From Bacteroidota bacterium (GTDB taxonomy: Bacteria; Bacteroidota; Rhodothermia; Rhodothermales; Bin80): a stretch of DNA of 33,089 nucleotides. The notes beneath the pieces are model-generated. The model was not told the origin of the DNA. It did not search any database and worked only from the letters and a program-made list of their open reading frames with translations. The stretch spans positions 1 to 33,089 of the forward strand of contig JAPOTS010000119.1 in the NCBI GenBank assembly GCA_026709065.1, in the 5' to 3' direction. Position 1 is the stretch's first letter, and every line of letters begins with the position of its first letter. Positions 20,451-33,089 of the stretch are shown here, one piece after another. The position numbers and the translations under genes were made by a program.

Positions 20451-21437
20451 ATGTCTTCAAATCATGCTGATAGAAATCGAACACTCAGGTGTACTCCAGA
20501 AGAGCTGTCCGACTTATCCAAGGCGATCATGTCTGTTGAAGATTCAGTGAGTATAGAAGACATATCTGGGCAACTGATCAAAGGCAATTTTCATGAAATT
20601 GCCTACTTTCTTCCAGAGCAGTTCATTGATTTATTGATTCTTGATCCCCCCTACAATCTGACTAAGAACTTTAATGGCAATCTATTCAAGAAACAGGATG
20701 ATCAACAGTATGAGGAGTGGTTCAGGCGAGTGATTGAATCAATTGTTCCGTTGATGAAATCTAATGCGACAGCTTATATATGCTCAGATTGGATGACCTC
20801 TACGATCATTGTTCCTGTTCTTAAAGATTACTTCAGTGTCCGCAATAGAATTACATGGGAGAGAGAAAAAGGGCGGGGCGCAAAACGGAATTGGAAAAAT
20901 AATACTGAGGATATCTGGTTTTGCACTAAATCCGAAGAATATTATTTTGATGTGGAAATAGTGAAGCTTAAGCGCAGAGTATTAGCGCCTTATCGATTGA
21001 AGGGTATGCCAAAAGATTGGACTCAGGAGGCGGATGGAAACTATCGACTTACGCATCCATCAAACATCTGGACTGATATTACAGTGCCTTTTTGGTCAAT
21101 GCCTGAAAACACTTCTCACCCTACACAGAAACCAGAAAAATTATTCGCAAAGTTGATTCTTGCTAGTACAAAAGAAGGTGACTTTATATTTGACCCATTC
21201 GTTGGAAGTGGTACAGCTTGTGTGGTCGCAGAAAAACTTCATAGAAATTGGTGCGGGGTTGATATCAATGAAGAATATCTGTGTTGGGCAAAAAAACGCA
21301 TTAATGATGCCCATCATAACCAAAGTATTCAAGGCTATTGTGATGGAGTATTCTGGGAAAGAAACTCTACTCCCCAATCCTCCAATGCACCAGTTGATGA
21401 TGGAAACACCGATATCGCTCAGCTAAAAATATTTTAA
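20451..21437 (+). CDS. Type II DNA methyltransferase, probably N6-adenine, beta class
   Basis: A 328-residue SAM-dependent DNA methyltransferase. Motif order is catalytic first, then SAM site: motif IV DPPY at 65-68, motif X HPTQKP at 223-228 and motif I FDPFVGSGT at 247-255, which defines the beta class. DPPY (rather than SPPY) favours N6-adenine methylation. The protein is of single-domain Type II size with a short C-terminal extension (about 285-328). Its stop overlaps the ATG of the next gene by one base (TAATG), so methylase and nuclease are translationally coupled. It presumably protects the host at the site cut by its partner nuclease. The recognition sequence cannot be read from the sequence. 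Confidence 0.93.
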   Translation: MSSNHADRNRTLRCTPEELSDLSKAIMSVEDSVSIEDISGQLIKGNFHEIAYFLPEQFIDLLILDPPYNLTKNFNGNLFKKQDDQQYEEWFRRVIESIVPLMKSNATAYICSDWMTSTIIVPVLKDYFSVRNRITWEREKGRGAKRNWKNNTEDIWFCTKSEEYYFDVEIVKLKRRVLAPYRLKGMPKDWTQEADGNYRLTHPSNIWTDITVPFWSMPENTSHPTQKPEKLFAKLILASTKEGDFIFDPFVGSGTACVVAEKLHRNWCGVDINEEYLCWAKKRINDAHHNQSIQGYCDGVFWERNSTPQSSNAPVDDGNTDIAQLKIF

Positions 21438-22107
21438 TGAGATCAAAATTTTACTATCAAGGGGGAAATATAATAGTTGCCAACGCCATCAAAGATTATC
21501 TTAATTCGCTGAGTAATTTTATTTCACCTGAAATCGCTGATAGTACGAGAGCCATTGGAGATGCACTACAATTCCATGTGGCTCAAAAGCTAGAATCTCT
21601 ACTTGGGAATTGGTGTAGAGAGTATTCTAAAGATTTTGCACGTCGAGCAATGGCCGATATAGCCTTTACTGATATTGAAGACATTTACTCAATTATAGAT
21701 GTAAAGACTCAGCGAAAAGACACACATTTCAATATGCCTAATCTTACATCAGTTGAACGATTGTCACGTTTATATGAATCAGATGTGAATGTATTCTCGC
21801 TCATTATCATCAAATATTCAGTCAAGGGAACTAATGTGAATATTTCAGATTATTGTTTGTACCAATTGAATTTATTGATTGGGAATGTCTTACGATTGGT
21901 GCTCTAGGTTGGGGCCAAATTCAGATTGCTAATGCAAATAATATCAAAATATTACCTCAGAATTCAAGACGAGATTGGATGTTAAAATTATGTGATGCTT
22001 TGATGCTATTTTATCCAAGAGAGATTGAGAAAATTACTGATCGAATTCAACGTTTTGAAGACGTTAAATTATTTTGGGAAAATAAGAAAGATGTGTGGAT
22101 GAAATAA
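21437..22107 (+). pseudogene. Frameshifted Type II restriction endonuclease, HincII-like
   Basis: Two overlapping frames together make one nuclease. The first (21437-21907) carries the PD-(D/E)xK-type site: Asp74 in MADIAF and D88-V-K90 in IIDVKTQR, with spacing and surrounding residues close to the HincII pattern D-x13-D-x-K. It then loses homologous sense after about NISDY and ends in LLIGNVLRLVL. The second frame continues the protein from about 21850 (FVPIEFIDWECLTIGALGWG, QIQIAN, SRRDWMLKL) to 22107, and resembles the C-terminal part of such nucleases. Joining them requires gaining one base near 21845-21855. No canonical -1 slippery heptamer is seen, so a single-base deletion or a sequencing error is more likely than programmed frameshifting. 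As written, the enzyme is truncated and probably inactive. Confidence 0.75.
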
Positions 22108-22453
22108 TTGGTTTGTAGCTTGTTATTATAGTAGATTGCAGAGAATGTTAGAAAAATTAAATATTCTAATTCGTATCAAGTGTGCAGTTTACGGTCAGAG
22201 AATGTATCTCTACACTTGGTGGTATATGACCTAAATTATAATAATTGCTTTCAGAGTACTGTACTACTCTGGTTATCCAATTTATTTCATGGTGGGGCTA
22301 TTTTTGGAACCCTTCTAGAGAAGATGATTACTCAACTGGGAAGGTCATTCATGTTTTATTGAAGTTCATCAACATATATCAAGTGAACCAATAGTCTGAT
22401 ATTTCTGTTACATTTGTAAGACTTCTATTCAATATAAGATTCACAATTATTCA
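22108..22453. other. Gap between the two restriction-modification systems
   Basis: A strongly AT-rich stretch of 346 bases. It holds only short frames (a 29-codon ATG frame at 22145-22234 and a GTG-started 60-codon frame at 22180-22362) that I do not recognise and do not call. A TACATTTG at 22409-22416 matches the Bacteroidota -7 consensus, 37 bases before the next ATG. The short frames could be decayed remains of an island gene. Confidence 0.35.
22409..22416 (+). promoter_or_regulatory. Candidate -7 promoter element of the second R-M system
   Basis: TACATTTG fits TAnnTTTG and lies 37 bases upstream of the methyltransferase ATG at 22454. No clear -33 TTG partner was found. It would give the second system its own promoter, independent of the first. 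Confidence 0.33.
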
Positions 22454-23671
22454 ATGCCAGTCACCTTCTCAGAGACTGATCCAGAATACTCTGATTTATT
22501 GGAACTCTTGGGGAAACCCAGTTGCCCTACAGAGTTTTGTGTTCACATCTTAGAAAATGGTAGCTCTACTAGTGATAAAAGAGAGGCATTATCTTCAATT
22601 GGACGCAAGAAAGATGCTATCAATAAACCATTGTTATTTCAATATGCTGACCATCGAAACCCAGAAGTTGCTATGCAAGCTATCAGAGGATTGCTTGTTT
22701 TCAGAGGTGATCAGGATGTTTTAGATTTGTTGCACAAATTGTCGAGTCATCCAAATGACATGATCAAAGATCTTATTGATCATGAGATCATGAGTGAAAA
22801 TCAAACAAATGAAAACTCTCATAGTGAATCTCCTGACAAGTTGAAGAATGTATTAATTGAGGGCGATGTTTCAAAAATTATTCGGTGCATACCAGATGAT
22901 TCTATTCACTTGACCTTTACATCACCACCTTACTACAATGCACGTGATTATTCTATCTATTCCAGTTATACTGAGTACCTAAATTTTTTAGAAACAGTTT
23001 TTCTTCAACTACACCGCGTGACCAAAGAAGGTAGATTTTTTGTTCTAAACACATCTCCCGTCATCATTCCTCGTGTCGGTCGCAAGTATTCAAGTAGGCG
23101 ATATGCGGTCCCTTTTGATCTTCATGCTCGGTTAGCTCAGATGGGCTGGGATTTTATTGATGACATAATTTGGGCAAAACCTGAGAAGAGTGCAAAGAAC
23201 AGAATTTCAAATTTTAATCAGAACAGAAAGCCTCTCACATATAAGGCTAATTCCTGTACTGAGTATGTTATGGTTTACCGCAAAAAGTCAGGCAGACTGA
23301 TTGACTGGAATTTGCGTCAATATGATAAAGATGTTTTGCGAGCGAGTTTAGTGGATGATCATTTTGAGCGTTCAAATATTTGGCAAATTCCTCCCAAATC
23401 AAGTAAGTTACACACTGCGATATTTCCAGAACAACTATGTAGCCAAGTCATCAAGCTCTACTCTTTTGTTGGCGATTTGATTTTTGATCCGTTCGCTGGT
23501 AGTGGCACACTAGGTCTTGTTGAGAAGCAACTTCAGAGAAATTATCTTCTGACCGAATTATGCAAAGAATATGCAGATGTGATTGAGAATCGATTAGGAT
23601 TGCCAGAAATCAATAGTAGTGTTTTTCGTAGAATGACACTACAGCAGTTTATTGATGACATTAGATCGTGA
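22454..23671 (+). CDS. HEAT-repeat/N4-cytosine-type DNA methyltransferase fusion
   Basis: A 405-residue protein with two parts. Residues about 35-115 form HEAT-like helical repeats (REALSSIGRKKDAINKPLLF, HRNPEVAMQAIRGLLVF, DVLDLLHKLSSHPNDMIKDL), and a polar linker follows (about 116-130). The catalytic domain has motif IV TSPPY with S157-P-P-Y160, and motif I FDPFAGSGT at 344-352, in beta-class order. SPPY is typical of N4-cytosine methylases. The 3' end overlaps the CfrBI-family nuclease gene by 17 bases, and known CfrBI methylase is also an N4-cytosine enzyme, which supports the pairing. The HEAT segment is not part of a minimal Type II methylase. It may mediate protein contacts, for example with the nuclease, but that is inference. 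Confidence 0.9.
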   Translation: MPVTFSETDPEYSDLLELLGKPSCPTEFCVHILENGSSTSDKREALSSIGRKKDAINKPLLFQYADHRNPEVAMQAIRGLLVFRGDQDVLDLLHKLSSHPNDMIKDLIDHEIMSENQTNENSHSESPDKLKNVLIEGDVSKIIRCIPDDSIHLTFTSPPYYNARDYSIYSSYTEYLNFLETVFLQLHRVTKEGRFFVLNTSPVIIPRVGRKYSSRRYAVPFDLHARLAQMGWDFIDDIIWAKPEKSAKNRISNFNQNRKPLTYKANSCTEYVMVYRKKSGRLIDWNLRQYDKDVLRASLVDDHFERSNIWQIPPKSSKLHTAIFPEQLCSQVIKLYSFVGDLIFDPFAGSGTLGLVEKQLQRNYLLTELCKEYADVIENRLGLPEINSSVFRRMTLQQFIDDIRS

Positions 23672-24551
23672 GATTATTCAATTGGGTGTGGCTTCATTGC
23701 TCAAAGGGCATGACCATAGAAAGCTTGTGTACAAGCTTGTAAGCACAAGTTTTATTGAGGTAGCTATATCGTTTTTCAAGAAAGTTGTAGAAGTAAAATT
23801 GGGGAATGATTCTATTGATCTATCATGGTACAGGCAAGCATTTATTGAATATGAATATGTGAAAGAGTCCATTGCCGCTAATGCGGGGCTTTCTGATAAA
23901 TCAATTACTAACGCCAGAGGTACAACACGTAAAGAAGTTGTTCTACATGAAGCACTATCTAATTTTGATGAACTTGTTTCTATCATCAACTCATTATGTG
24001 ATACTCATAGCGACGTAGAGATCCAGCTATCCATTACATTTAATTCTGTGACTGTCCAGCTTAGTCTTAATGAAAGTTTGTTAGTCATCAATGCATTGGG
24101 TATGAAACGTAAGCAGATTGCAGGTGGAATATGGAGTAGCTTCGGTAAGCAAGCAGAAACACCTCTCTTAGAAGCTATGTGTAAGATCTTTATGGTACCC
24201 GAAGAACATTATGAATCAGAACACCGAACGGCAGTCAGAGAAGTAGACTTCAGCCTTATTGATTCAGAGGGTAATAAGAAAAAATGTGAGATAAAACTTA
24301 CTGGACGTGGGAATCCAGAGGGAGCTGATTCAACGTTTGCCCGAGATTCCGATGTGTTTATCGCGGGCACATTATCAGAAACGAATACTAAACAACTCAA
24401 TGACAGAGGTATACACTGGGTAGAATTGATGAAGTCACATGGTTTCCTTAGGTTTGGTAAAGTGTTAGCGGATCTAAACATCCCACATCAACCCCTTGAT
24501 CCAGAATGTGATATTGACGAAATCATAGATAACACCGTGGTGGAGATATAA
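23655..24551 (+). CDS. CfrBI-family Type II restriction endonuclease
   Basis: A 298-residue protein from ATG 23655; a TTG at 23652 is one codon earlier. The recognisable part is the C-terminal nuclease region. REVDFSLIDSEGNKKKCEIKLTG supplies the Asp and ExK residues of a PD-(D/E)xK site, followed by GNPEGADSTFARDSDVFIAG, LSETNTKQLND and HWVEL, the pattern I associate with the CfrBI family (CfrBI itself cuts CCWWGG). The N-terminal half has helical segments without a known motif. The frame is intact. Overlap with the methylase gene suggests coupled translation. The recognition sequence may resemble that of CfrBI, but this cannot be concluded from the protein alone. Confidence 0.85.
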   Translation: MTLDREIIQLGVASLLKGHDHRKLVYKLVSTSFIEVAISFFKKVVEVKLGNDSIDLSWYRQAFIEYEYVKESIAANAGLSDKSITNARGTTRKEVVLHEALSNFDELVSIINSLCDTHSDVEIQLSITFNSVTVQLSLNESLLVINALGMKRKQIAGGIWSSFGKQAETPLLEAMCKIFMVPEEHYESEHRTAVREVDFSLIDSEGNKKKCEIKLTGRGNPEGADSTFARDSDVFIAGTLSETNTKQLNDRGIHWVELMKSHGFLRFGKVLADLNIPHQPLDPECDIDEIIDNTVVEI

Positions 24552-31444: not shown

Positions 31445-31726
31445 ATGAGATTTTTCACTTGTGTCACCAGTCTAATTTGCTTTTTATTCTTAGGCAATGG
31501 AGCTATTGTAAGCACGGAATCTTTCCTTCATGACTCAAAGGATTTTGCACTTAATGCTAATGATTCTCTATCCCCTCGGGGGATATCAAAGGGACATGCG
31601 TTCTTGAACATAGAGGCAGTTTCATTTTTTGAACATCATTTCACAAACAGATCAAACGAAAATACTATATTTTGTAATCATACTCCACATTTGTTAGACA
31701 TCATTTCTCCCCCCCCCCATTTTTAA
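31445..31726 (+). CDS. Signal-peptide 5' segment of FN3 surface protein, ends at poly-C tract
   Basis: Starting at ATG 31445, this frame encodes 93 residues. MRFFTCVTSLICFLFLGNGA is a good export signal, and the rest is a polar segment with no known domain. An upstream in-frame start at 31406 would put extra residues before the signal and is less likely. The frame runs through a run of ten C residues (coding Pro-Pro-Pro) and stops at TAA 31724-31726. At the same tract another frame continues openly to the window end as a fibronectin-type-III protein. I read this as the N-terminus of that protein, separated by a one-base frame difference at the poly-C. As an independent 93-residue secreted peptide it would be odd. 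Confidence 0.6.
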   Translation: MRFFTCVTSLICFLFLGNGAIVSTESFLHDSKDFALNANDSLSPRGISKGHAFLNIEAVSFFEHHFTNRSNENTIFCNHTPHLLDIISPPPHF

Positions 31727-33089
31727 ATGAACACTCACCCAGTGGGGAAATCATCACCCATCGGGTACGACCAATAGACGCAGAGACGAACTTCGGGATC
31801 CTGCGTGATTCCTTCCCTTTTGAAGTATTGGATGTGGATGCCTCTATCCCAAGCCGATCTCCCACAGCGTCCATTGAAGACATTCCTTTTTTCAACTACA
31901 GCTTCATTCGCCCGTCTGGCGTGCCCACTGAGTCCGTAATGGAAGCATCCACAGCTCCAGGCAGCAATGTGCCCCATCGGATTACGAATCCGATGAAGCA
32001 TAACGCGGTATCTGCGGAGTCTCATGCTGGTCTGCTTCGGCAACCTCCCTTGCGTGCTAACAACTCTGTAAGGACATTAGATAACTCCAGATTTGATGAT
32101 GAAGCCGCTCCTGGTGCCCCAACGAATCTAACGGCAACGGCGATTGGGACATCGTTGATTAAATTGTCATGGGATGCCCCCACGAATACTGGAGCTGGTC
32201 TTACTGTATACTTTCTTGAGCAATCCACAGATGGAGATGCCGAAAGCCCTACATGGAGATTAATAACTAATCCTTTATATCCCCAAACAACCCGACTGGT
32301 ATTAAGTCATACTGCCGCAACGACCTATTGGTATCGAATACGGGTAACAGACAATGCAAGTGAATTGAGCCCTTATTCCAATATAGCTAATGCCACGACG
32401 GGTGACGCAGCCGCCGCTCCCGGTACACCCACTTCACTCACCGCAACCGCAGATGGGCCAACCACCATTAATCTCAGTTGGACAGCACCAACAAGTACGG
32501 GAGGCACAGCCATTACAGGATATAGAATTTTAGTTTCTCCAAATTTATCTTTTAACTATACAACTGTAGTTGCCAATACAGGCAATACAAACACATCTTA
32601 TTCTCACACGGGATTGAGGGCAGGCACCAGATATGACTACCATGTTCTTGCCATCAACGCAGCAACAAATATAGGCCCCAACTCCAGTAGTGCTACCCAT
32701 GCTACCACTGCGGCAGCCACTGCCCCCGGTGCACCGACTTCGCTTACTACTGCTGCTGATGGGCAAACCACCATTGATTTGAGTTGGACAGCTCCAACAA
32801 GTGATGGCGGAGCGGCCATCAGCGGCTACCGGATTGAGGTATCTACAGACGGGGGAACGAATTTCTCGCAACTGGTAGCAAGTCAGAGCGGGACCAGCTA
32901 TTCCCACACTGGCTTGACCGCTGGCACTGCCCGTCACTATCGGGTGCGAGCCATCAACTCGGTAGGCAGTAGTGGATGGTCCAATACAGCGAATGCGACG
33001 ACTGCGGCCGCCACTGCCCCTGGTGCACCGACTTCGGCCGCCACTGCCCCTGGTGCACCGACTTCGCTTACCGCTACTGCTGATGGGCA
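31678..33089 (+). CDS. Fibronectin type III repeat protein, N-terminus out of frame, 3' end beyond window
   Basis: An open frame from after the stop at 31675-31677 to the window end, with no export signal or convincing start of its own. The first part (31719-32100) is polar, rich in Ser/Pro/Thr and without a known domain. Then come FN3 domains: one at about 32104-32403 (APGAPTNLTATA, KLSWDAP, TYWYRIRVTDN), a second at about 32410-32712, and a third at about 32713-33006 (TIDLSWTAPTSDGGAAISGY, HYRVRAINSVGSSGWSN). A fourth is cut by the window edge. Linkers are Ala/Thr/Pro-rich. FN3 arrays of this kind occur in large secreted or surface adhesins. In the intact gene the signal peptide would come from the frame starting at 31445, across the poly-C tract. 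The C-terminus is not in the window. Confidence 0.75.
31709..31718 (+). repeat. Homopolymeric C10 tract, candidate phase-variation switch
   Basis: Ten consecutive C residues, the longest G/C homopolymer I saw in the window. The signal-peptide frame enters the tract and stops eight bases after it. The FN3 frame passes through it and stays open. One added C or two removed would join the two frames into a single secreted protein. Confidence 0.65.
33007..33066 (+). repeat. Perfect 30-base tandem duplication in FN3 linker
   Basis: The 30-base unit at 33007-33036 is repeated exactly at 33037-33066. It encodes AATAPGAPTS twice, in frame. The unit spans the end of the linker and the first strand of an FN3 domain, so the first copy is a stub not followed by the rest of a domain. 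It may be real slippage or recombination, or an assembly error in a repeat array. Confidence 0.85.

Follow-up and report, generated by a model that had tools for sequence, protein, structure and literature searches.

Poly-G/C contingency loci have been described in Campylobacter and Helicobacter (PMC8355987, PMC2823697, PMC4965091), in which homopolymeric tracts lie within reading frames and changes in their length yield out-of-frame OFF states. Length-variable repeats also mark the phase-variable type III mod methyltransferases, or phasevarions (PMC6265453, PMC8125046), and phase variation typically affects surface and restriction-modification (R-M) genes (PMC8355987, PMC6265453). The same gene classes are prominent in sponge symbionts, whose metagenome-assembled genomes (MAGs) are enriched in FN3/cadherin adhesins and R-M genes (PMC8163846). 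Here we describe a poly-C tract between a putative export leader and an FN3 body in a Bacteroidota MAG, which is very probably a translational phase-variation (contingency) locus and one of a genome-wide set in a genus of sponge symbionts.

The window analyzed here comprises 33,089 nucleotides and is one whole contig (G000:C95) of a 3.34-Mb MAG in 139 contigs, hereafter G000. On its forward strand, a leader of 88 codons (31445–31708) begins at the ATG at 31445 (MRFFTCVTSLICFLFLGNGAIVS...); its N-terminus is hydrophobic and, judged by eye from its composition, contains a plausible export signal (MRFFTCVTSLICFLFLGNGAIVSTE...). The leader runs up to a C10 tract (31709–31718), a simple repeat of a potentially hypermutable kind early in the reading frame and the proposed slippage switch, which is followed by ATTTTT (31719–31724), the 3′ half of a recurrent C9+ATTTTT motif (AAAAATG9+ on the opposite strand). 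At the assembled length, the leader frame reads CCC CCC CCC CAT TTT TAA and terminates at the TAA at 31724–31726. The FN3 surface-protein body (31720–33089, codons 31720–33087) lies in another frame, open without interruption from 31678 to 33087 at the contig end, and has neither a start nor a signal of its own. It contains at least three fn3 domains (PF00041, E = 2e-30 in domain searches); the full gene is not visible because the contig stops at 33089 inside the FN3 repeats. An earlier note on this DNA had placed the leader start at 31445, the tract at 31709–31718, the leader stop at 31726 and an FN3-encoding frame from 31678 onward, all of which matched exactly on recheck. Its proposal that C11 or C8 would fuse the two frames is borne out by the rule that leader and body join only when the tract length is 2 modulo 3 (8, 11 or 14). 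Runs of C8 or longer occurred at one site in the window (three overlapping matches, against 0.26 expected), a count reached in 1 of 100 dinucleotide shuffles.

In the mechanism we propose, slipped-strand mispairing would reversibly alter the number of Cs. At 8, 11 or 14 Cs, translation would continue from the leader into the FN3 body, and the resulting long adhesin-like protein would be exported, possibly for surface display and adhesion to sponge tissue; at any other count, including the assembled C10, it would halt within or just past the tract and give no useful product. The assembled C10 in this MAG may itself be off by one base, and the OFF state is thus uncertain. A broken frame seen in a single strain could also signify a pseudogene, an adhesin gene in decay whose frameshift is fixed, but we give this reading almost no credence: the body extends for 456 codons without other disruption, dN/dS against relatives was 0.24–0.57 in the comparisons made, and the break falls exactly in a tract common to paralogues, six of which are in frame. 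The substitution pattern indicates that the body is under purifying selection despite its out-of-frame state. Upstream in the window, a SufS-SufE fusion protein points to CAR4_bin_2, CAR3_bin_16 and RHO1_bin_46 (74–81% protein identity) as the nearest named relatives, all of them Bacteroidota MAGs whose isolate names appear to fit the sponges of PMC8163846; CAR3_bin_16 and RHO1_bin_46 carry other genes after the suf cluster, where the window carries the FN3 gene.

We then compared the stretches around tracts in this genome and its relatives, calling frames at FN3 loci from leaders that begin with Met and contain a hydrophobic core. The order of leader, tract and body was common to 11 FN3 loci in G000 and the sister species G002. 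Leader and body were in frame at six of them (L021 C10, L023 C10, L170 C9, L187 C13, L193 C9 and L198 C10) and out of frame at the other five (the window C10, L016 C10, L192 C9, L195 C9 and L197 C11); all three phases were represented, with the out-of-frame loci off in both directions. The in-frame product of L170 comprises 1510 aa with eight fn3 stretches, and its C-terminus gave a weak, below-cut-off match to Por_Secre_tail (E = 5e-4), as a sorting domain would be expected there in cargo of type IX secretion; the window gene loses this region to the contig end. Three further FN3 paralogues in G000 lack the tract and encode leader and body in one frame, thereby showing what the uninterrupted gene would look like. 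At the FN3 loci of G003 and G005, a few codons separate the start from the tract, which precedes the hydrophobic core (MRKPCNSTTRMSHRFPFNLAI-PPP-...LGLLLLVILISPVEALAQ) and has lengths of 9–16 and mixed phases. The earlier note had looked to orthologues for a conserved tract of other lengths; homologues in this genome and the sister species indeed keep the junction tract, in both states. This family-wide tract, its length differences and the mixture of in-frame and out-of-frame copies support the phase-variation reading put forward there.

Tract lengths also differed between orthologues whose flanks are ~90% identical (L202 C16 and L219 C11; L206 C14 and L215 C10; L208 C9 and L226 C10; L026 C10 and L199 C9). 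A DNA methyltransferase provided a parallel case, carrying a tract at one position with C13 in G000, C10 in G003, C13 in G009 and C11 in G002; a copy in G007 (C16) lies at a contig end and was left out of the count. Only in G002 does the gene form a single 810-aa frame (ON), while in the other three it is split into frames of ~570–580 and ~285 aa. The tractless homologue in G029 has a proline linker of near-equal length (DIQDVPPSPADDSVARSGE vs QIDEEKSPPPDFSLVRSGE), which argues that the tract and its T-run arose in place within the linker. Arrival of the motif as a mobile insertion is thus unsupported in the methyltransferase set, the sole family in which this was tested.

Across the genome, C/G runs numbered 65 at length 7 and 8, 11, 14, 4, 1 and 1 at lengths 8 to 13, respectively. 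This distribution has a second mode at 9–10, which a simple decay would lack, and 31 tracts reach at least 9. One of the C10 runs (L014, G000:C55:91020–91029) lies in frame in a FolD-like gene (HPPPFLAVVLVGDNPAS) without the flank and is probably a chance proline run. Pfam domain searches showed that tracted genes with recognized domains are mostly adhesin-like (fn3, Big, Calx-beta, cadherin, LRR) or belong to R-M systems (TypeIII_RM_meth with N6_N4_Mtase, Type_ISP, Eco57I/N6_Mtase, EcoRI_methylase, C5 methylase, and HEAT with N6_N4_Mtase). The TypeIII_RM_meth/N6_N4_Mtase genes were assigned by Pfam for L223 and L009 and by homology to those for L201 and L168. A few tracted genes had no Pfam match, and the tract at L024 closely precedes a WD40-repeat gene.

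These comparisons bear on the possibility of a consensus error, in which the true tract would be C11 (or C8), the gene intact and the homopolymer miscalled in assembly. Homopolymers are difficult to call, a single assembly represents the locus here, and the body is conserved, yet we regard this explanation as unlikely. Even if one length were wrong, the range of lengths (9–16), the occurrence of both phases, the differences between orthologues and the gene-class bias would persist, and the error would affect which state the switch is in but leave the switch itself in place. Sequencing error is also insufficient because dozens of tracts concentrate in adhesin and R-M genes with a common flank.

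Several additional loci were recorded. Within the window, two DNA-methyltransferase-like genes (20451–24551) each precede a gene that is restriction-like or unknown; the HEAT and N6_N4_Mtase-like gene at 22454–23671 has no tract, while its apparent G005 homologue with the same domain pair (L246) carries C9ATTTT near its start. Two loci that appear methyltransferase-like by eye, L293 (G000:C119) and L296 (G000:C117), have C9 tracts that split or precede the frame and are followed by GATTTT and ATTAAATTTT, respectively. An EcoRI-type adenine methylase in G002 (L243) and G003 (L244) bears an antisense C9AATTTTT near the 3′ part of the first frame, and in G003 it is present as two similar copies in tandem. 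Finally, a repeated secreted-protein family in G003 and G005 (L227–L234; a signal, then DTYYVDT...) has a G9 at or adjoining the start codon (AAAATGGGGGGGGG); its ~11 copies over the two genomes have nearly identical flanks, and many lie at contig ends.

Many of the tracts share the sequence that follows them. Among unselected C9+ runs listed for G002, G003, G005 and G009, 44 of 107 were directly followed by ATTTT, or 28 of 87 after identical flanks were collapsed, compared with ~0.25% of short C runs in the same DNA. Binomial values for this difference are not to be taken literally, given partial dependence among the copies, but the enrichment is plain to see. C9ATTTTT occurred 12, 16, 12 and 16 times in G000, G002, G003 and G005, respectively, while the reversed control pattern had no match in these four genomes. 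The other six of the ten genus members examined contained the motif 0–3 times. A set of 395 genomes drawn from across the phylum included 386 from outside the family; just 2 of these carried the motif, with a single hit apiece, and it is therefore no general feature of the phylum.

The motif recurs in unrelated genes on either strand: FN3 genes carry it C-sense, whereas most R-M genes carry it G-sense (AAAAATG9+), which indicates a property of the DNA and not of one RNA. This bears on a further explanation, programmed slippage of RNA polymerase or the ribosome on the C run and adjacent T run, whereby some full-length protein would be made at any length and the DNA would remain unchanged. C9+ adjoining T5–7 does form slippery sites, at which some leak in the OFF state is plausible. 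Programmed slippage as the explanation of the locus nevertheless has very little probability in our estimation, since it would fix one phase, whereas relatives span all three, and since the RNA sequences differ (C-rich followed by U in FN3 genes, A/G-rich in R-M genes), which again favours a DNA-level property.

Relatedness between loci also changes at the tract. Past the tract, the window body is 100% identical to that of L197 in G002 over the first 150 bases and 88% identical over ~1.2 kb, whereas the two leaders are unrelated. The window leader had no match in the ten genus genomes, and a search of G000 for the G002-type leader matched no more than 33 bases, which lie at the query's far upstream end and outside the leader itself. 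The same discordance, switching exactly at the tract, was observed for L021 and L023 against L195 (98–99%), L202 against L226 (97%), L219 against L226 (95%) and L207 against L213 (89%). L204 and L213 present the reverse case, with leaders 94% identical and bodies weakly alike. On this comparative evidence, leaders and bodies appear to reassort exactly at the tract. An assembly chimera, in which leader and body were wrongly joined at the tract and their frame relation is meaningless, would account for a leader that is unique in the genus and a body that matches another leader in G002, and FN3 contigs do break nearby. We nonetheless consider it very unlikely: the join has only ~10–20 shared bases, below the usual assembly k-mers, and the same discordance is found in G003 and G005 and in mid-contig genes. 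A chimera is possible in individual cases but unlikely in all, because some of these genes (L219, L225) lie well inside contigs.

A more speculative proposal, possible but on balance doubtful, would unite the flank with this reassortment. The sequence (A5–7)T(G9+) may be a lineage-specific, strand-neutral DNA module that has arisen repeatedly in unrelated genes, either because slippage is enhanced by the flank or because some factor is recruited to it. The module might double as a site of recombination at which adhesin bodies exchange their export leaders and promoters. Sponge symbionts would thereby gain a surface repertoire that combines on/off switching with mix-and-match assembly.

Returning to phase variation by slippage, we asked whether loss of mismatch repair could underlie the tracts. 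MutS was present in all ten genus members, which rules out this cause; a high switching rate thus gains no support from mismatch-repair loss. The mutS gene of G000 (L292, G000:C123:15500–19200) itself contains a G9 ~280 nt before its 3′ end; the frame is intact (869 aa) and the run lacks the ATTTT flank. The mutS of G003 was the other one compared by coordinates, and it contains no C9 run. A change in the length of this G9 would alter the MutS C-terminus, although the run itself may be due to chance.

Sponge symbionts live for long periods inside an animal, among phages and phagocytes. Random on/off switching of surface and defence genes is probable in this uncultured lineage, and with a genome-wide set of switches spanning adhesin-like genes and R-M methyltransferases, cells would carry different random combinations. 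If so, cells with different surface and methylation types would coexist in each symbiont population, a mosaic that the MAG consensus hides. The common flank and the swapping of leaders further raise the question of why one short DNA context recurs, and whether it acts as a recombination joint besides being a slippage site.

How far, then, does the locus resemble the systems described previously? For sponge symbionts, the open-access literature searched contained nothing direct on phase variation; the gene classes and the kind of host are the same as in PMC8163846, but that study, from whose text the word 'phase' is absent, reports no phase variation of FN3, cadherin or R-M genes. The same literature yielded no description of the constant flank or of leader swapping, which is weak evidence of novelty. 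Compared with phasevarions, length-variable repeats are again found in TypeIII_RM_meth/N6_N4_Mtase genes, but the repeat here is a G tract with an AAAAAAT flank. With the Campylobacter and Helicobacter loci, the present set shares similar tract lengths in reading frames, out-of-frame OFF states, surface and R-M genes as carriers, and tracts that also occur late in reading frames; it differs in its phylum, in the constant A5–7T flank and the reassortment of leaders and bodies, and in the presence of MutS. In its sequence features, namely tract site, frame switching, length-variable homologues and gene class, the locus conforms to the contingency class.
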